Below are positions 8,485 to 20,818 of a stretch of 64,000 nucleotides of DNA, piece after piece. Both the position numbers and the translations under genes were made by a program. Each line of letters opens with the position of its first letter. Positions within the stretch are counted from its first letter, which is position 1. Source of the stretch: Kribbella rubisoli (GTDB lineage: Bacteria > Actinomycetota > Actinomycetes > Propionibacteriales > Kribbellaceae); contig NZ_SHKR01000013.1 of NCBI RefSeq assembly GCF_004217145.1, forward strand, positions 310,001 through 374,000, given 5' to 3'. The notes under the pieces are model-generated. The model saw only the letters and a list, made by a program, of their open reading frames with translations, was not told the origin of the DNA and made no database searches.

Positions 8485-9480
8485 ATGACTGACATGCCGG
8501 TCTTCGGCGCGGGTATCTGGCACTTCGCCACCTACAAGGACCGTTACGCCACCGACGGGTACGGCGATCCCGTCACCCTGCTCGAGCAGATTGATCGCGC
8601 CGGAGCGGTCGGCGATCTGTCCGTGGTCGACCTGAACTGGCCGTTCGCCGGGTACGACGGCACGCTCGACGAGGTGAAGGCCGCGCTGCAACGCAACAAC
8701 CTCAAGGCGATCGCGATCACGCCGGAGATCTACACCCGCGACTTCGTCAAGGGCTCCTTGACGAACCCGGACCCGGGCGTCCGCAAGCAGGCGATGGAAC
8801 TGTTGCACCAGGCAACCGAGCTGGCGAAGGACCTCGGCTGCTCGTACGTGAAGCTGTGGCCGGGCCAGGACGGCTGGGACTACCCGTTCCAGGTCGACTA
8901 CCACGACATCTGGAACCTCGCCCTCGACGGCCTGAGGGAGCTGGTGTCCGCGCACTCCGACATCAACTTCGTGATCGAGTACAAGCCGCGCGAACCGCGG
9001 GTGAAGATCATCTTCCCGAACGTCGCCCGGACGCTGCTCGGGATCGAGAAGATCGGTCTGCCCAACCTGGGCATCCTGCTCGACTTCGGCCACTCGCTGT
9101 ACGGCCAGGAGACGCCGGCCGACGCGGCGCAGCTGGCGATCGACTACAACCGGCTGTTCGCGATCGACGTCAACGACAACATGAAGGGCTGGGACGACGA
9201 CATGGTCGTCGGCTCGGTGCACCTGGTCGAGACGTTCGAGTTCTTCCACACGCTACGCAAGAACAACTGGGAGGGCGTCTGGCAGCTGGACCAGTTCCCG
9301 TTCCGCGAGGACAGCGTCCAGGCCGCGAAGCAGGCGATCACGTTCCTGAAGGCGATCCACCACGCCCTCGACGTACTCGACGACGAGGCGTTGGCCGCCG
9401 CGCAGGCCTCGCATGATGCGCTGGCCGCGCAGAAGCTGGTGCAGAAGGTGCTGCTGAGTTCGATGTCGGAGATCGCATGA
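8485..9480 (+). CDS. Sugar isomerase/epimerase, xylose-isomerase-like TIM barrel
   Basis: 331 residues of the AP-endonuclease-2/xylose-isomerase TIM-barrel family. Likely metal ligands are Glu165 (V-I-E-Y), Asp200 and His203 (L-L-D-F-G-H) and an acidic residue near 269. It starts 8 nt after the permease stop behind AAAGGA and ends in a 4-bp overlap with the transketolase gene. In the D-apiose pathway an isomerase of this fold converts apiose to apulose, the substrate of the FGGY kinase. Other aldose-ketose isomerisations or 3-epimerisations remain possible. Confidence 0.87.
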
Positions 9481-10355
9481 CTCTCACCGTCGAGCACGCC
9501 ACGCTGCCGGTGCTCGGACGGCTGCCTGCACACAGCAGCCGGACCGAGCAGATCGCGCACATCGCCGAGGCTGCCAAGCAGATCCGGATCCAGGACCTCA
9601 AGCTGGTCCACTACGCCGGAGCCGGGCACATCGGCGGTGACTACTCCGCGATCGACATCCTGGCCACGCTGTACGGCGCTGTGCTCGACATCTCGCCCGC
9701 GACCGTTGACGATCCCGAGCGGGACCGCTTCATCCTGAGCAAGGGCCACGTCGCCGGCGCGCTCTACACCACGCTCGCGGCGTTCGGGTTCCTGCCGGTC
9801 GAGGAGCTCGCGACGTTCCTCAAGCCGTTGTCCGCGCTGAACGGTCACCCGAACCGGACGAAGGTCGCCGGCGTCGAGGCGAACACCGGTCCGCTCGGTC
9901 ATGGTCTGCCGATCGCCGTCGGGCATGCCCTCTCGGCCAAGCTCGACGTCTCGATGCGCCGTACGTATGTGCTCGTCGGGGACGGTGAGTTGCAGGAGGG
10001 GTCGAACTGGGAGGCGATGATGGCGGCCTCGCAGTACCAGCTCGACCGGCTCACCGTGATCGTCGACCGGAACCGGCTGCAGCAGGGCGCGACCACCAAG
10101 GAGACCAACGACCTCGACCCGTTGCCGGAGAAGGCGGCCGCGTTCGGGTTCGCGGTCGTCGAGGTGAACGGTCACGATCACGGCGAGTTGCTCGACGTGC
10201 TGTCCGCCGTACCGTTCCGGCCGGGCAAGCCGACGTTCGTGATCGCCCACACGCACAAGGGGCACCCGATCTCGTTCATGAGCAACAACGTCGCCTGGCA
10301 TCACCGCGTCCCCGACGACGCCGAGTTCGCGCAGGCCCTGAAGGAGCTCTCATGA
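9477..10355 (+). CDS. Transketolase, N-terminal (thiamine-diphosphate-binding) subunit
   Basis: 292 residues covering only the first transketolase domain. The TPP motif begins at G-D-G (168-170) and ends at Asn199; the conserved histidines in A-G-H-I-G-G and S-K-G-H are present. Full-length transketolases have about 650 residues, so this is half of a split enzyme whose partner is the next gene, overlapped by ATGA. Split transketolases of this kind cleave apulose-4-phosphate in known apiose clusters; some act on other ketose phosphates. Confidence 0.92.
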
Positions 10356-11320
10356 CCGTCACCGACAGACCCTCGATCGCCGACCAGCCGCGCTACGACT
10401 GCCGGGACGCGTACGTCGAGACGCTGGCCCAACTCGCCGAAGCCGATCACCGGATCGTTGGCGTGGTCAACGACTCGGTCGGATCCAGCAAGCTGAACAG
10501 CTTCCGCAAGGCGTTCCCGGACCGGCTGATCAACGTCGGGATCGCCGAGCAGGACATGGTCGGCGTCGCGTCCGGGCTGGCCAACGGCGGCCGGATCCCG
10601 TTCGTTTCGGCGGCGTCCTGCTTCCTCACCGCTCGCGCCCTCGAGCAGATCAAGGCCGACGTCGCGTACTCGAACACCAACGTGAAGCTCTGCGGCATGA
10701 GCCCAGGCGTCGCGTACGGCGAACTCGGCCCGACGCACCACTCCGTCGAGGACATCGCGTGGTTGCGGGCGATCGACGGGATCAGGATCATCGTGCCGGC
10801 CGACCCGATCGAGACGGCGGCCGCGCTGCGTTGGGCGGCGGCGTCCGAGGGGCCGGTGTTCATCCGGGTCAGCCGGATGAGTGTGCCGAAGGTGTACTCC
10901 GACGACTACGAGTTCCGCCTCGGCAAGGCGATCACGGTTCGGGACGGGAACGATGTCACGGTGATCAGCAACGGCACGGTCCTGTGGCGCGCACTCGCGG
11001 CGGCTGAGCGGCTGGCCGAGGAAGGGATCTCGACCCGGGTGCTGTCGATGCCGACGGTGAAGCCGCTGGACACCGACGCCGTGGTCGCGGCCGCGCGGGA
11101 GACGGCCGGCATCGTGACCGCCGAGGAGGCTGTGACCGCCGGCGGACTCGGCGGCGCGGTCGCGGAGACCGTCGTACAGCATCATCCGGCGCGGGTGTCG
11201 ATCCTCGGGTTCCCCGAGTTCGCGCCCACGGGGTCGGCCGGTTATCTGCTGGACCGGTACGGCCTGTCCCCCGAGGGCATCGCCGACGCCGCCCGCAAGC
11301 TCGTCATGACAGGTAAGTGA
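10352..11320 (+). CDS. Transketolase, C-terminal (pyrimidine-binding) subunit
   Basis: 322 residues covering the second and third transketolase domains. The motif G-I-A-E-Q-D-M at 63-69 contains the Glu66 that activates thiamine diphosphate in the partner subunit. It is the last gene of the operon and its 3' end overlaps the convergent ribB gene by 17 bp, with no obvious terminator between them. Together with the previous gene it should form an alpha2beta2 enzyme transferring a two-carbon unit from a ketose phosphate. Confidence 0.92.
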
Positions 11321-11918
11321 CCAGGTCGGCGATCGAGATCATCGCGAAGTCATGAGCGTCGGCGAACGCGCGCAGGTCGGTGCCGGTCATCAGCGTGCCG
11401 TCGTCGTTCATGAGCTCGCCGATCACGCCGACCGGCGGCAGGCCGGCCAGCCGGACGAGCTCGACTGTCGCCTCGGTGTGACCGGGGCGCTGTCGTACTC
11501 CGCCGTCGACCGCGCGCAACGGGAGGATGTGACCGGGCCGGATCAGGTCCGCGGGCTGCGCCTCCGGGTCGGCCAGCACGCGGACGGTCCGTGCTCGGTC
11601 GGCCGCGGAGATGCCGGTGCCGACACCGGTCGCCGCGTCCACGGAGACCGTGTACGCCGTCCGCAGGCTGTCCTGATTGTTCGGGACCATCAGCGGGAGC
11701 TCGAGGCGGTCCAGCAGCTCCGGCGCCGCGGGCGCGCAGACGTATCCGCTGGTGTGGCGGACGAGCAGGGCCATCAGCTCGGGCGTGGCGAGACTCGCGG
11801 CGAAGGTCAGGTCGCCCTCGTTCTCACGGTCCTCGTCGTCGACGACCACGACCGGCCGTCCGGCGGCGAGCTCGGCGACGGCGCGTTCGATGGTGTCCAG
11901 GCTGGTGATGGTGTTCAC
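11304..11918 (-). CDS. ribB: 3,4-dihydroxy-2-butanone-4-phosphate synthase
   Basis: 204 residues, the usual length for a stand-alone RibB. It converts ribulose-5-phosphate to dihydroxybutanone phosphate plus formate for riboflavin synthesis. The acidic metal loop is canonical (D-E-D-R-E-N-E-G-D), as are R-P-G-H, G-H-T-E-A and E-L-M-N-D-D-G. GTG 11918 is chosen for the GAGAGGA upstream; the frame is open to 11969. An FMN riboswitch precedes it. It sits as a convergent single gene inside the sugar locus, which may mean the locus was inserted around it. Confidence 0.95.
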
Positions 11919-12014
11919 GGTCGTTGTCCTCTCGGCAGTGCTCTGGACAGCACTCCGGGGCAACGACAAACCTCACGCCCCTGTTTTCGCGCAGGAAACG
12001 TGAAGCTGCCACGT

Positions 12015-12140
12015 GCGTCTTCCCATCCGGACTTTCACCGTCGGTCCCGGAGTTCCACCAGGTCAACCGCTCCTTCTTGCGAAGTCACGGGTCGCGGACT
12101 GTCACCGCCGGCTCGGAATTTCACCGACCCCAGAGCACGT
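12015..12140 (-). promoter_or_regulatory. FMN riboswitch (RFN element) for ribB
   Basis: Read on the minus strand, the leader holds the conserved RFN blocks: G-G-T-C-G-G-T-G-A-A-A-T-T-C-C near 12130-12116, CCGGCGGTGACAGTCC soon after, and GACGGTGAAAGTCCGGATGG near 12044-12025. The stretch to 11919 would be the expression platform, ending at the ribB ribosome binding site. High FMN should lower ribB expression. The complementary strand is the 5' flank of the divergent glycoside hydrolase gene. Confidence 0.92.
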
Positions 12141-12187
12141 GTGTCTTTCATCATCAGCTTAACGGCAATGAGCATCCCGGGAGTGTC

Positions 12188-15999: not shown

Positions 16000-16277
16000 C
16001 TTGCTCGTCATCGGCTGGCAGGTCCTCGGACAACGGTCGCCAGGTCCTCGTCAGCCGCACCACCTGGGGCAACAATCTGCTGGACGTCCTCTGACCCGTC
16101 TGTGGTTTACTGCCGATTGGTGCGATTCCACGGTGTGACGGTTGGACGTGATTCCAGGCCCGTCGGCTCTGCCGGAAGGCGGAGTGACCCGGTGCGACCG
16201 GGGCCACGCGGTGATACCCCGCTTCAGCTCGGACCTCGGACGGTCCCTGGCCATGTGCGAGTGGCGGAGAGCGAAGC
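16000..16277. other. 278-bp leader region before the riboflavin-type fusion gene
   Basis: No open reading frame or canonical FMN riboswitch is visible. The stretch contains several GC-rich local inverted repeats (for example CCCGG-TGCGA-CCGGG near 16190) and two GATTCCA/GATTCC direct repeats near 16124 and 16150. It may hold the promoter and a structured leader. Confidence 0.35.
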
Positions 16278-17480
16278 ATGTTCACAGGACGAATCGAGAA
16301 TGTAGGCACGGTCGTCGAGGTTTCCGGCGACCTGTTGCGGGTCAGGTCGGATGTTGCGGTGGCGCCGGGTGGCGCGGTCTGCCTCGACGGGATCAGGTTC
16401 GCCGCGGAGTCAGGCCCGCCCGGGGAGATCAGGGTCGTTGTGACGGACGAGACCCGCCGGCGTACGACGTTCGATCGAGTCTGCGGCGGTACGACGCTGC
16501 ATGTCGAACTACCGGTGGCGATCGGGGACCGGATCGACGGGCATCTGATCCAAGGGCACGTCGAGGGGGTCGGCAAGGTGCTCCGCGTCGACGTTGAGCC
16601 GACCGGTCACCGGGTGTGGATCAAGCCGCCGGAGCGACTGTTGGCGCGGTTGGTGGCGAAGACGTCGGTTGCGATCGACGGCGTGAGCATCACCGTCGCC
16701 GAGGTGCTCAAGGACCGGTTCTCCGTCGTACTCGTGCCGAACACGCTGACGAAGACGAAGCTCGGTACGTTGGTCGCGGGCGATCGGGTCAACCTCGAGA
16801 GCGATCTGCTCGTGCGGATGGCACGTGAAGGGCATGGGCCGGAGTTGCAGCGGGCGGTGGCGCAGCTGCCGTGGGCGGGGCAGCTCAGCGGCGAGGCCGG
16901 CGTACAGAAGGTGGTTGCGCAGATCGCGGCCGGTGGTGGGGTTGTGGTGTGGGATCCGACGGCTGAGGGCGAAGGCGACGTGGTCTTCGCGGGTGAGCGG
17001 TTCCGGCCGGAGGCGATGAGATTCCTGCTCACACAGGCTTGTGGGCACACGACGGTCCCGTGCGCGGCCGACGTACTGGAGCGGTTGGAGATCGGGCCGA
17101 TCCCGGGCAACGGCGACCGGCAGGGTACGGCGATGCATGTGCCGGTCGATCTCGCCGCGTCTGAAGGGACCGGGGTGTCCGCGGCCGATCGGGCGGCGAC
17201 TATTCGCCGGCTGGCGTCGGCGGACGCCGTACCGGAGGACTTCCTGCGACCTGGGCACGTGTTTCCGCTGGCCGCGCGGCCCGGGCTGCTCGACGAGCGT
17301 CAAGGGCACACCGAGGCGACGGTCGCGTTGTGCGTTGCTGCGGGGTTGGCGCCGGTCGGCGTGTGTTGTGAGGTGATGCGAGCCGACGGGGTGATGGCGG
17401 GCGCGGCCGACCTCGAGCAGTTCGCGCTGCGGTGGGAGTTGCCGATGATCGACATCCACGATCTGGAGCGCTGGCTGTGA
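16278..17480 (+). CDS. Riboflavin synthase-DHBP synthase fusion (divergent RibE-RibB)
   Basis: 400 residues. Residues 1-190 are a tandem lumazine-binding barrel as in riboflavin synthase, starting M-F-T-G-R-I-E-N and keeping G-H-L-I-Q-G-H-V-E-G-V-G. Residues 200-400 resemble DHBP synthase. The usual N-G-V-C-L-T block of barrel 1 reads D-G-I-R-F-A. The RibB acidic loop reads P-T-A-E-G-E-G-D, keeping both glutamates and the last Asp but losing the Asp-Arg pair; R-P-G-H and G-H-T-E-A remain. A complete RibB is encoded at 11304, so this looks like a specialised paralogue. The next gene, a methyltransferase, overlaps by GTGA. Confidence 0.85.
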   Translation: MFTGRIENVGTVVEVSGDLLRVRSDVAVAPGGAVCLDGIRFAAESGPPGEIRVVVTDETRRRTTFDRVCGGTTLHVELPVAIGDRIDGHLIQGHVEGVGKVLRVDVEPTGHRVWIKPPERLLARLVAKTSVAIDGVSITVAEVLKDRFSVVLVPNTLTKTKLGTLVAGDRVNLESDLLVRMAREGHGPELQRAVAQLPWAGQLSGEAGVQKVVAQIAAGGGVVVWDPTAEGEGDVVFAGERFRPEAMRFLLTQACGHTTVPCAADVLERLEIGPIPGNGDRQGTAMHVPVDLAASEGTGVSAADRAATIRRLASADAVPEDFLRPGHVFPLAARPGLLDERQGHTEATVALCVAAGLAPVGVCCEVMRADGVMAGAADLEQFALRWELPMIDIHDLERWL

Positions 17481-18169
17481 GCCTCTACGACAACCCTCAG
17501 TTCCTGGAGGGCTATCGGCAACTGCGCCGTACCGGCCAGGGCATCAACGACGCGTTGGAGATACCGGCAATGGATGCCGCGCTCCAAGGTCTGCCGCTCG
17601 AAGGAGCTCGGGTGGTGGATTTGGGGTGTGGTGAGGGTGGGCTTGCAGGTCGCTTGGCTGCTCGGGGCGCTGCGGAGGTGTTGGCCGTTGACGCCTCCGA
17701 GCGGATGCTTGCGGCCGCGGTTCCGCATCCTCATGTTCGGTATCTGCGCGCCGATGTTGCCAGCTTCGATCTACCGTGCGGCTCCGCGGACCTGGTGGTC
17801 AGCAGCATGGCGTTGCACTACGTCGAGGACTTCGTTGGGCTGGTCGAGCGGGTGGCGGGCTGGCTCGCGCCGGGTGGGGCATTCGTGTTCTCGGTGGAGC
17901 ATCCGGTGATGACAGCGCCCGTGGTCACCGCGGACTGTGTCGTCGACGACTATGCGGACGAGGGGCGGCGGGAGCGGAGCTGGTTCGTCGACGGGGTGGT
18001 GAAGTACCACCGCACGATCGGCTCGATTGTTTTGAGCCTCCGCCGCCACGGCTTCCGCCTGGAATCCCTCGACGAGCCGCTCCCGACCCTGGATCAGGTG
18101 GCCGCCCACCCTCACCTCGCCATCCATCGTCGACGCCCGCCGATCCTCTTGGTCTCGGCTCGCACTTGA
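17477..18169 (+). CDS. Class I SAM-dependent methyltransferase
   Basis: 230 residues with the Rossmann-fold glycine motif V-V-D-L-G-C-G-E-G-G near 50-59 and an acidic V-D-A-S loop about 20 residues later. It is of the small-molecule methyltransferase type. GTG 17477 overlaps the stop of the RibE-RibB fusion, so the two are translationally coupled and probably act on the same compound. The substrate is unknown. Confidence 0.88.
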   Translation: MSLYDNPQFLEGYRQLRRTGQGINDALEIPAMDAALQGLPLEGARVVDLGCGEGGLAGRLAARGAAEVLAVDASERMLAAAVPHPHVRYLRADVASFDLPCGSADLVVSSMALHYVEDFVGLVERVAGWLAPGGAFVFSVEHPVMTAPVVTADCVVDDYADEGRRERSWFVDGVVKYHRTIGSIVLSLRRHGFRLESLDEPLPTLDQVAAHPHLAIHRRRPPILLVSART

Positions 18170-18212
18170 CGCAGGTTTATCCATCTGGGTAACTTTTACT
18201 CATGCGGATAAA
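18166..18212 (+). promoter_or_regulatory. Promoter with repeated GGRTAAA half-sites for the tetR operon
   Basis: TTGACG (18166-18171) and TAACTT (18190-18195) are spaced by 18 bp, placing the start of transcription at or within a base or two of the ATG at 18202, so the mRNA is probably leaderless. Half-sites TTTATCC (18176), GGGTAAC (18187), TTTACTC (18195) and GGATAAA (18206) alternate in orientation across the promoter and first codons, as expected for an autoregulating TetR repressor. Confidence 0.6.
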
Positions 18213-18795
18213 TCAGAGCACCGACCGCGCCCGGAGTACGGCGGCTCGCCGCGACCAGATCGTGGCCGCGACGATCACCGTACTCGCGGAGCGCGGCTAT
18301 GCGGCGACGTCGTACGACGCGATCTGTGAGGTTGCCGGGCTGAGCAGCAAGCGGCTGATCTCGTACCACTTCAGCACCAAGGACGAGCTGCTGGCGGAGG
18401 TCCTCCGCCGGGTGACCGCCGATGCGGGCGAGGCGATGCGGCCGGCGATCGAGGCCGCCGACGAGCTGCCGGGGAAGCTTGCCGCCTACATCCGGTCGAA
18501 CGTCGAGTTCATCGCTGCCCGGCCGGATCATGTCCGCGCTGTGCAGCAGATCGTCTTCGGCGGCGCGCAGGTGCCGTCCGAGGAGGCCGACGGTGCGGTC
18601 GCCCGCTTGGTCGCGCTGTTTGAGGCCGGTCAGCAGGCCGGCGTGTTCCGGCGCTTCGATTCCTTGCTGATGGCGGTCGTCCTGCGCGCCGCCATCGATG
18701 CCGTGGCCGGCCGCCTGATCGGCGGCGCCGACCCCGATGACTGCGCGCGGGAACTGATCGAGACCTTCGACCGAGCGACCCGAGTGGAGCAATGA
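18202..18795 (+). CDS. TetR/AcrR family transcriptional regulator
   Basis: 197 residues. The N-terminal TetR helix-turn-helix spans about 14-60, with the recognition helix in S-S-K-R-L-I-S-Y-H-F. The C-terminal ligand domain is not assignable. It overlaps the following membrane-protein gene by ATGA and has a promoter with alternating half-sites over its own start, so it probably represses the TetR-membrane protein-monooxygenase operon until a small molecule binds. Confidence 0.92.
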   Translation: MRINQSTDRARSTAARRDQIVAATITVLAERGYAATSYDAICEVAGLSSKRLISYHFSTKDELLAEVLRRVTADAGEAMRPAIEAADELPGKLAAYIRSNVEFIAARPDHVRAVQQIVFGGAQVPSEEADGAVARLVALFEAGQQAGVFRRFDSLLMAVVLRAAIDAVAGRLIGGADPDDCARELIETFDRATRVEQ

Positions 18796-19436
18796 TGACG
18801 ATGACGCTGGATGCCAAACCCAAAGCGCGCTGGGGAGCGGTGCTCGCGCCCGTCCTGGTCGACCTGGTCGTGCCCCTGCTGATCTTCTACGGTCTGCGCC
18901 AGTCCGGCGTCGGCGTGGTCGGCGCGACCCTGGCCGGATCGGTGATCCCGGTCGTGCGTACGGCGTACTCGATCGTCCGGGGCCGCAAGGTCGACTGGAT
19001 GGCCGTCTTCATGATCATCGCGCTCGCGGTCGGCACGATCGCGTCGCTGGCGATGCACAGCCCGCGGATGCTGCTCGCCAAGGACGGCGTGATCACCGCG
19101 CTGTGCGGGCTGTGGATGCTCGGAACCGTTGCCCTCGGCAAACCTCTGCTGCTGTCGATCGGCCGTGGCATCGCGGAAGCCAAGCGTGGCAAGGGTGGCG
19201 GCTCGGTGTGGGCGGGTCGGTGGGACCGTGAGCCGCGGTTCCGGTCCGGCATCCGTCTGGTCACGATCGTCTGGGGTGTCGGTCTGGTCTTCGATGCGGT
19301 CGTACGCGTTGTGATCGCATATGTGCTGCCGCTCGACGCGGTCCCGGGTGTGACGACGATCCAGTGGATCGTGTTGTTCGCGCTGCTGTACGGCTTCATG
19401 ATGATCTACTCGCGCAAGAACGATCTGCTCGCGTGA
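18792..19436 (+). CDS. VC0807-family integral membrane protein
   Basis: 214 residues with five or six predicted membrane segments, matching the VC0807 family often found beside TetR regulators. Its start overlaps the tetR stop and its own stop overlaps the start of the monooxygenase gene (GTGA). The function is unknown; the context suggests transport of, or protection from, the compound sensed by the regulator. Confidence 0.78.
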   Translation: MMTMTLDAKPKARWGAVLAPVLVDLVVPLLIFYGLRQSGVGVVGATLAGSVIPVVRTAYSIVRGRKVDWMAVFMIIALAVGTIASLAMHSPRMLLAKDGVITALCGLWMLGTVALGKPLLLSIGRGIAEAKRGKGGGSVWAGRWDREPRFRSGIRLVTIVWGVGLVFDAVVRVVIAYVLPLDAVPGVTTIQWIVLFALLYGFMMIYSRKNDLLA

Positions 19437-20818
19437 ACGACGTGCTGGTCGTCGGTGCCGGACCGACTGGGCTGTTGCTGGCGTCGGAGCTCGTTCTCGC
19501 GGGTGTGGATGTCGTCGTCGTGGACAAGGCCGCTGAGCGGTCCGGGCAGTCGAAGGCGTTGACGCTGCAGCCGCGGTCTGTGGAGATCCTGCACTCCCGC
19601 GGGCTGCTCGGTTCGCTGCTCGACGGCGCGCCGCGGTTGCCCGCCGGTCACTTTGCTGGGTTGCCGGTTCCGCTTGACTATACCGCGTTGGACACCAGAT
19701 TCCCTTACCAGCTTGGGATTCCGCAGCGGCGGGTCGAGCAACTGTTGGAGGATCATTTGGTTGCTCAGGGCATCGTTGTACGGCGGGGTCTCGAGCTGAC
19801 CGGCCTCCGGCAGGACTCGGCCGGCATCGTGGCGTCGTTCTCGGACAGCTCGGCGATCCGCGCCGGGTGGACTGTCGGCTGCGACGGGGCGCGGAGTGCG
19901 GTGCGGAGGCTGGCTGGGATCGAGTTCCCAGGACGCGACGGGCGGTTCAGCGCGGTCGTCGCCGATGTCGTCATCTCCGGTGTCGAGCCGGGCTGGGGAC
20001 TGCCGGCGCTGGTGCCGCGGGATGGTGCAGTGATGACGATGGTGCCGCTGGAGGACGGCGTACACCGTGCGCTGTTCACGGGCCCGGGGCAACAAAATGT
20101 GCCGAAGGATCAGCCGGTCACGTTCGATGAGGTCGCTGCCGCGTTGCAGGCCTGGTACGGCGAGGACGTCGTACTGCGTGAGCTCCGGTACGCGTCGCGC
20201 TTCACCGACGCTGCCCGGCAGGCCGATCGGTATCGCGCCGGCCGGGTCTTCGTGGCAGGCGATGCGGCGCACATTCACTCGCCGACCGGTGGTCAGGGGA
20301 TGAACCTCGGACTGCAGGACGCGTTCAACCTCGGGTGGAAGCTCGGCGCGGTTGTGCGGGGCGATGCGGACGACGACCTGCTGGACAGCTACCACGACGA
20401 ACGGCATCCCGCCGGGAGCGCCGTACTCGCGAACACCCGGGCCCAAGGTGTGCTGATGGTGCCGGACGACGACGTCGCGTGTCTGCGCGAGACATTCGTC
20501 GATCTGCTCGGCGTACCGGAGGCGAATCGGCGGCTGGCGGGCATGATCTCGGGGATCGGGCTTGCATATGCGGGCGGTGAGCATCCGTTGGTGGGTCGGC
20601 GGATGCCGGATCTGACGCTCGCGGACGGTACGACGGTGTCCTCACGTCTTCGAGGCGGGCGGTACGTGCTGCTCGAGGGCGGGAACCTTCCGGCGGCGCG
20701 GATTCTGGTCCGGCCGGACGGGTACGTGCGGTGGGCAACCGATGACTCCGAGGCAGAAGTGCCGGGGTTTGCGCGTGTTTCGGAGCTTCGAGTGACCACG
20801 GCGTCGACAACCCGTTAG
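19433..20818 (+). CDS. FAD-dependent aromatic monooxygenase (PHBH-type)
   Basis: 461 residues. The dinucleotide fold G-A-G-P-T-G lies at residues 8-13, D-G-A near 150 and the flavin motif G-D-A-A-H-I-H-S-P-T-G-G-Q-G near 280-293, as in class A hydroxylases acting on phenols or polyketides. The C-terminal thioredoxin-like part is short. GTG 19433 overlaps the upstream stop. It probably inactivates or modifies an aromatic compound under TetR control. Confidence 0.9.
   Translation: MNDVLVVGAGPTGLLLASELVLAGVDVVVVDKAAERSGQSKALTLQPRSVEILHSRGLLGSLLDGAPRLPAGHFAGLPVPLDYTALDTRFPYQLGIPQRRVEQLLEDHLVAQGIVVRRGLELTGLRQDSAGIVASFSDSSAIRAGWTVGCDGARSAVRRLAGIEFPGRDGRFSAVVADVVISGVEPGWGLPALVPRDGAVMTMVPLEDGVHRALFTGPGQQNVPKDQPVTFDEVAAALQAWYGEDVVLRELRYASRFTDAARQADRYRAGRVFVAGDAAHIHSPTGGQGMNLGLQDAFNLGWKLGAVVRGDADDDLLDSYHDERHPAGSAVLANTRAQGVLMVPDDDVACLRETFVDLLGVPEANRRLAGMISGIGLAYAGGEHPLVGRRMPDLTLADGTTVSSRLRGGRYVLLEGGNLPAARILVRPDGYVRWATDDSEAEVPGFARVSELRVTTASTTR

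Follow-up and report, generated by a model that had tools for sequence, protein, structure and literature searches.

The window, a stretch of 64,000 nucleotides from Kribbella rubisoli, contains on its plus strand a single open reading frame of 400 amino acids (16278-17480), which encodes two RibE lumazine-binding barrels followed by a RibB (DHBP-synthase) domain. The parts of the gene and the features around it are listed in Table 1. Pfam analysis detected PF00677 in two stretches and then PF00926 (E-value 3e-58), and, thus, the order RibE-RibB of the original prediction was verified. The N-terminal barrel copy alone was under the Lum_binding cut-off in the source genome. NCBIfam models for both enzymes matched the fusion, each under the curated ribE or ribB cut-off, i.e., 116.5 bits with the RibE equivalog TIGR00187 (cut-off 156.6 bits), 137.9 bits with the RibE model NF006767 (cut-off 155 bits), and 151.5 bits with the RibB equivalog TIGR00506 (cut-off 177.45 bits). 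Both halves were modelled well by AlphaFold (mean pLDDT 85), but the pTM was only 0.53, and the mutual placement of the halves in the model is thus unreliable. With this model Foldseek revealed RibB of V. cholerae with Ru5P as the best match (4p8e, E-value 6e-19, TM score (target) 0.81), and it also paired the halves with RibB-Ru5P complexes and riboflavin synthases. The motif GGAGAG in front of the start codon was also present in several Kribbella relatives of which the upstream stretches were compared.

Table 1. Features of the fusion locus and of the separate ribB gene in the window.
Feature	Position	Strand	Evidence
Separate canonical ribB	11304..11969	-	PF00926, 269.8 bits
FMN riboswitch of the separate ribB	12009..12142	-	Rfam RF00050, 88.9 bits
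Likely ribosome-binding site GGAGAG, six bases 5' of the fusion start	16266..16271	+	Sequence
N-terminal RibE barrel, residues 1-88	16278..16541	+	Lum_binding under cut-off; pLDDT mostly >90 (AlphaFold)
C-terminal RibE barrel, residues 89-182	16542..16823	+	Lum_binding, 80.8 bits
RibE/RibB linker, residues 183-207	16824..16898	+	Alignments; reduced pLDDT
RibB (DHBP synthase) domain and stop codon, residues 208-400	16899..17480	+	PF00926; residue table; Foldseek
Class I SAM-dependent methyltransferase, 230 aa	17477..18169	+	Methyltransf_11, E-value 3e-18

The original prediction had proposed a search for the fusion in other genomes, and this search was positive. The full-length fusion was present in 19 of 38 Kribbella genomes, with identities of 75-100%, and a scan of named genomes revealed more than 30 additional loci outside of Kribbella (identity 54-65%). 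The genera in the scan were Amycolatopsis, Saccharothrix, Nonomuraea, Streptomyces, Actinomadura, Planobispora, Pseudonocardia, and Streptacidiphilus, and the fusion was also found in myxobacterial, deltaproteobacterial, and acidimicrobial MAGs. Every full-length family member that was read was one fused open reading frame. The occurrence in so many loci ruled out chance or an assembly artefact, and the RibE-RibB fusion is real. Of 395 genomes drawn evenly from the class, only two contained the fusion. This rare and patchy distribution suggests that the family has spread horizontally.

Maximum-likelihood trees were calculated for each half separately, in which 24 fusions were set against canonical actinobacterial and other sequences. 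In both trees the fusions formed one clade, with support values of 100/99 for RibE and 100/100 for RibB, and the stems of the clades were long (0.59 and 1.2 changes per site, respectively). The ribE, the ribBA, and the lone ribB of the source genome were all placed outside of the fusion clade, and both domain trees thus ruled out that the fusion arose by a recent duplication of rib genes of this genome. The simplest reading of the trees would be a single old fusion event, followed by divergence. In rib operons ribE is commonly followed by ribBA, and, thus, such a fusion could be generated by the loss of one stop codon alone. In a comparison of ten Kribbella sequences, the median dN/dS of the RibB domain was 0.09, that of the C-terminal barrel 0.11, and that of the N-terminal barrel 0.30, and the value of the lone ribB was 0.10. 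These values rule out a pseudogene and indicate that the fusion gene is functional and under purifying selection, which is relaxed for the N-terminal barrel.

The residues Cys48 and Thr50 as well as Ser146, Thr148, and Asp185, which we take to be the half-site residues of RibE, were inspected in both barrels. In the window copy the C-terminal barrel was intact and the N-terminal barrel was altered. In the latter, Phe2 was retained, while Cys48 was replaced by Arg40 and Thr50 by Ala42. The residues K137, S146, T148, T165, N181, E183, and D185 of the C-terminal barrel were all present (K128, S137, T139, T156, N172, E174, and D176 in the window copy), and they were invariant or nearly so across the fusions. 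The position of Cys48 was occupied by Arg in all Kribbella sequences and by Arg, Gly, Ala, or Cys in other fusions. His102 was retained in Kribbella, and it was absent in Amycolatopsis and many Nonomuraea. The N-terminal barrel was degraded in Kribbella, Amycolatopsis, and most Nonomuraea. Several deep-branching fusions, including MAG lineages, retained both Cys48 and His102, and a plain flavin role would be possible for these proteins with a complete RibE site.

Riboflavin synthase requires both barrels, and the retention of the C-terminal site during the decay of the N-terminal barrel would fit to a RibE half that has lost its enzymatic function and, like the lumazine protein, serves as a sensor or carrier, which binds lumazine or flavin and controls the active RibB half or delivers to it. 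A lumazine protein was found among the relatives in the PDB, and RibBX (6mnz), a two-domain DHBP synthase, is among the Foldseek matches, which would also be in line with such a role. Yet the fold of the N-terminal barrel was still predicted with confidence, its dN/dS value indicates that some constraint is left, and some relatives retained the full site, so that we regard a sensor or carrier as unlikely.

The roles of the RibB residues were judged from the DHBPS structure with bound phosphonothrixin, in which the metal- and phosphonate-binding residues are defined (PMC12268802), and from V. cholerae RibB, together with mutations at retained positions that kill the enzyme of V. cholerae or M. 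jannaschii (PMC5228156). The residues E38, E40, D42, H136, R150, H153, T154, and E174 (E. coli numbering) were all retained in the window copy, as E230, E232, D234, H327, R341, H344, T345, and E365. Glu38, Glu40, Asp42, His136, Arg150, His153, and Thr154 were conserved in all 55 aligned fusions, with one Thr154Ser exchange, and the same was true for Thr107 and Glu174 in essentially all of them. The residues that bind the metals and the phosphonate in the phosphonothrixin structure are among these retained positions. Changes were seen in loop 1, which reads W225-D-P-T-A229 in the window copy and is one residue shorter, with Ala229 instead of Arg37 and Gly231 instead of Asn39. The shortened loop 1 with Asp-Pro, a Trp at position 32, and a small or other residue instead of Asn39 were found throughout the family, and Thr96 was replaced by His in most fusions. 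The position of Arg37 was more variable, with Ala, Leu, or Val in Kribbella, Thr in Amycolatopsis, and retention of Arg in 23 of the 36 fusions outside of Kribbella. In Kribbella, Arg37 was the sole loss among the ligand-contacting RibB residues that were checked. Judged from the alignments, the catalytic residues of the RibB half are preserved, but its specificity residues are not.

The original prediction had stated that both active sites are changed. The segments D-G-I-R-F-A and P-T-A-E-G-E-G-D are indeed present, and Cys48 and Arg37 are lost, but the catalytic residues of RibB and the C-terminal barrel are intact, and the statement was thus too strong. The deep single clade, its long stem, and the altered pockets indicate that the family has diverged from the housekeeping enzymes. 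The comparison of sequences thus supports the view that the fusion belongs to one old and patchily distributed RibE-RibB family.

The loss of Arg37 might also have another meaning. Phosphonothrixin, a product of a Saccharothrix strain and an inhibitor of DHBP synthase, makes contact with exactly the Arg that is absent in Kribbella (PMC12268802), and a spare lumazine synthase protects the producer of flavophos (PMC12871164). On this precedent, and with fusions in two Saccharothrix genomes, the gene could be a self-resistance copy, whose altered RibB and RibE tolerate a natural inhibitor of riboflavin biosynthesis of the phosphonothrixin type. This is very improbable, because a PEP mutase above the TIGR02320 cut-off was found in none of the 38 Kribbella genomes, which disfavours phosphonate resistance, a phosphonate cluster was not seen next to the fusion, and the RibE half as well as the methyltransferase would be left unexplained.

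On another contig of the source assembly (8.6 Mb) there is a canonical operon that comprises ribE, ribBA, and the single ribH, and, thus, the redundancy of the fusion is real. Each fusion-bearing genome had one RibH, and a second lumazine synthase as a partner was found in none of them. A normal ribB gene is close by, as had been predicted (Table 1), but it does not belong to the fusion system, because lone ribB genes were found in many of the 38 Kribbella genomes, both with and without the fusion, and because it alone carries a riboswitch. In the window the lone ribB lies tail to tail with a transketolase that is split across two genes (9477-11320).

The lone ribB of the window and its counterparts in the three tested relatives that carry this gene are preceded by an FMN riboswitch. 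In contrast, no FMN riboswitch (RFN element) was detected in front of the fusion, neither in the window nor at the 24 other fusion loci searched, indicating that the fusion is outside of the flavin-repressed regulon. This bears on the explanation that the fusion serves as an auxiliary vitamin B2 supply, i.e., that an unregulated second RibE plus RibB raises the level of riboflavin or of pathway intermediates when special conditions prevail, and that the methyltransferase acts on another compound. The intact catalytic residues of RibB, the intact C-terminal barrel site, the family members that retained Cys48 and His102, and the many solitary fusions would all agree with it. The explanation is nevertheless rather doubtful, because the riboswitch is missing at the fusions, Kribbella has neither Cys48 nor the phosphate-binding Arg37, the N-terminal barrel is relaxed, and a plain supply of vitamin B2 would not explain the tight co-inheritance of the methyltransferase.

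The next gene after the fusion was predicted to be a translationally coupled methyltransferase, and this was borne out by the gene arrangement. The methyltransferase gene starts with a GTG that overlaps the stop codon of the fusion by four bases (GTGA), and a GGAG is located about eight bases upstream. The methyltransferase (METHYLTRANSFERASE) was present in 17 of the 19 fusion-bearing Kribbella genomes and in none of the 19 fusion-lacking genomes, always directly after the fusion (Fisher p 1e-8, whereby the related genomes are not independent). Otherwise it was rare (two of 297 genomes of the class). Outside of the genus, this methyltransferase (identity 43-56%) was found to overlap the fusion stop codon in two Saccharothrix, two Nonomuraea, one Catenulispora MAG, one Pseudonocardia, and one Streptacidiphilus, and a copy in Streptomyces humicola is seemingly broken. 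The pairwise distances of fusions and methyltransferases were correlated, with a coefficient of 0.93 for 24 pairs and of 0.99 for the seven pairs outside of Kribbella, and the correlation was matched by none of 2000 permutations. The adjacency in several families, the mirrored divergence, and the co-absence in Kribbella strongly support that the two predicted enzymes are functionally linked.

About twenty fusions outside of Kribbella, i.e., about half, had no such partner beside them (e.g., N. terrae, N. thailandensis, and Planobispora), and, thus, the methylation step is not universal in the fusion family. Unrelated or very distant methyltransferases were found in the same slot in Nonomuraea sediminis, the MAGs AC9 and MAG67, and Amycolatopsis acidicola, and a hotdog thioesterase was found there in five Amycolatopsis. 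The latter is of the 4HBT type and overlaps the end of the fusion by about 10 bases (L071, L072, L073, L076, and L107, from about position 9200). The presence of the methyltransferase was not correlated with the loss of Cys48 or His102, and partners were found with intact as well as with lost sites. A role in defence was also considered and rejected, because PADLOC revealed only a generic methyltransferase match for the methyltransferase and none for the fusion.

A conserved biosynthetic gene cluster around the pair was not found across the neighbourhoods compared. Within Kribbella, the pair occurred in at least two different genomic settings, which is consistent with a self-contained unit of fusion and methyltransferase. 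Two Kribbella loci (L054 and L057) have a gene for a LysE-type exporter behind the methyltransferase, and in one MAG (L105) the fusion is followed by a gene of the EamA type. In the window, genes for a TetR regulator, a small membrane protein, and an FAD monooxygenase (18202-20818) are located between the methyltransferase and a cNMP-binding gene. The methyltransferase gene and the cNMP-binding gene are direct neighbours in the nearest relative (L040), which suggests that the region between them was inserted recently. Most Kribbella of the thrE setting carry a gene for a DUF4185 protein in divergent orientation to the fusion (e.g., L044 7587-9161 and L047 10577-12103), and this gene is missing in the window. 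In Kribbella albertanoniae (L053) a gene of the PEP-mutase/isocitrate-lyase superfamily (11079-11831) is located just 5' of the fusion, and its product is far under the PEP mutase equivalog cut-off.

We tentatively interpret the fusion as a neofunctionalised bifunctional enzyme, which acts together with the methyltransferase in the formation of a specialised lumazine or flavin-like metabolite, away from vitamin supply, and we give this reading slightly less than an even chance. The substrate of the RibB half would still be a pentulose phosphate (Ru5P or a closely related compound), whose cleavage would yield a C4 hydroxyketone, i.e., DHBP or a close analogue. The C4 unit could then condense with 5-amino-6-ribitylaminouracil, either via the single RibH of the cell or spontaneously, and the RibE half would hold or convert the resulting lumazine. 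The coupled methyltransferase would methylate the product, and in some genomes the adjacent exporter of the LysE or EamA type may then release it from the cell. A modified flavin or lumazine, as proposed in the original prediction, is a plausible product. The missing conserved gene cluster, the many fusions without the methyltransferase, the thioesterase in its place in five Amycolatopsis, and the complete RibE site of several deep-branching fusions count against this interpretation. A more specific version would be that the pair uses a non-standard C4 (or other) unit to build a methylated analogue of a lumazine or flavin that has not been described before, and that this specialised metabolite or cofactor has been spread horizontally among actinobacteria and myxobacteria. 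This we consider to be somewhat unlikely.

In the papers searched, neither a fusion of RibE and RibB nor a lumazine cluster that includes a methyltransferase was described, but the gene-fusion survey PMC4921024 may list the fusion. As far as could be checked, the domains and the methyltransferase are known, and their combination and evolutionary unity are undescribed. To our knowledge, only few paralogues of vitamin B2 enzymes act outside of vitamin supply, namely lumazine proteins, roseoflavin genes, and resistance copies. A maker of a C4 unit and a lumazine-binding domain in one chain, together with a co-inherited methyltransferase, would give direct access to a metabolite of the flavin or lumazine type that is possibly new.

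With riboflavin synthase RibE (TIGR00187/PRK09289; E. coli 1i8d, S. pombe 1kzl) the fusion shares the two barrels, the MFTG start, and the residues of the C-terminal barrel, but the window copy has lost Cys48 and Thr50 of the N-terminal barrel, is fused to RibB, and scores under both curated cut-offs. With DHBP synthase RibB (TIGR00506; V. cholerae 4p8e) it shares the fold and all metal-binding and catalytic residues, and it differs in the loop 1 that is one residue shorter and contains Trp-Asp-Pro, in the exchanges of Asn39 to Gly, Thr96 to His, and Cys67 to Thr, in the loss of Arg37 in Kribbella, and in the score under the equivalog cut-off. The fold search revealed that RibBX (A. baumannii 6mnz) is also a DHBP synthase joined to a second domain, but this partner domain is not RibE, and we know of no link of RibBX to a methyltransferase. 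The lumazine protein and the yellow fluorescent protein (3a35, 3ddy) are likewise RibE paralogues with one decayed site. In the lumazine protein the decayed barrel is the C-terminal one, whereas in the fusion it is the N-terminal one, and the fusion is joined to RibB. The partner methyltransferase aligns over its full length with the class I SAM methyltransferase family of 3bkw and 3g5l, its nearest solved relatives (E-value 2e-49), and it differs from this family in that its subgroup travels together with the fusion.
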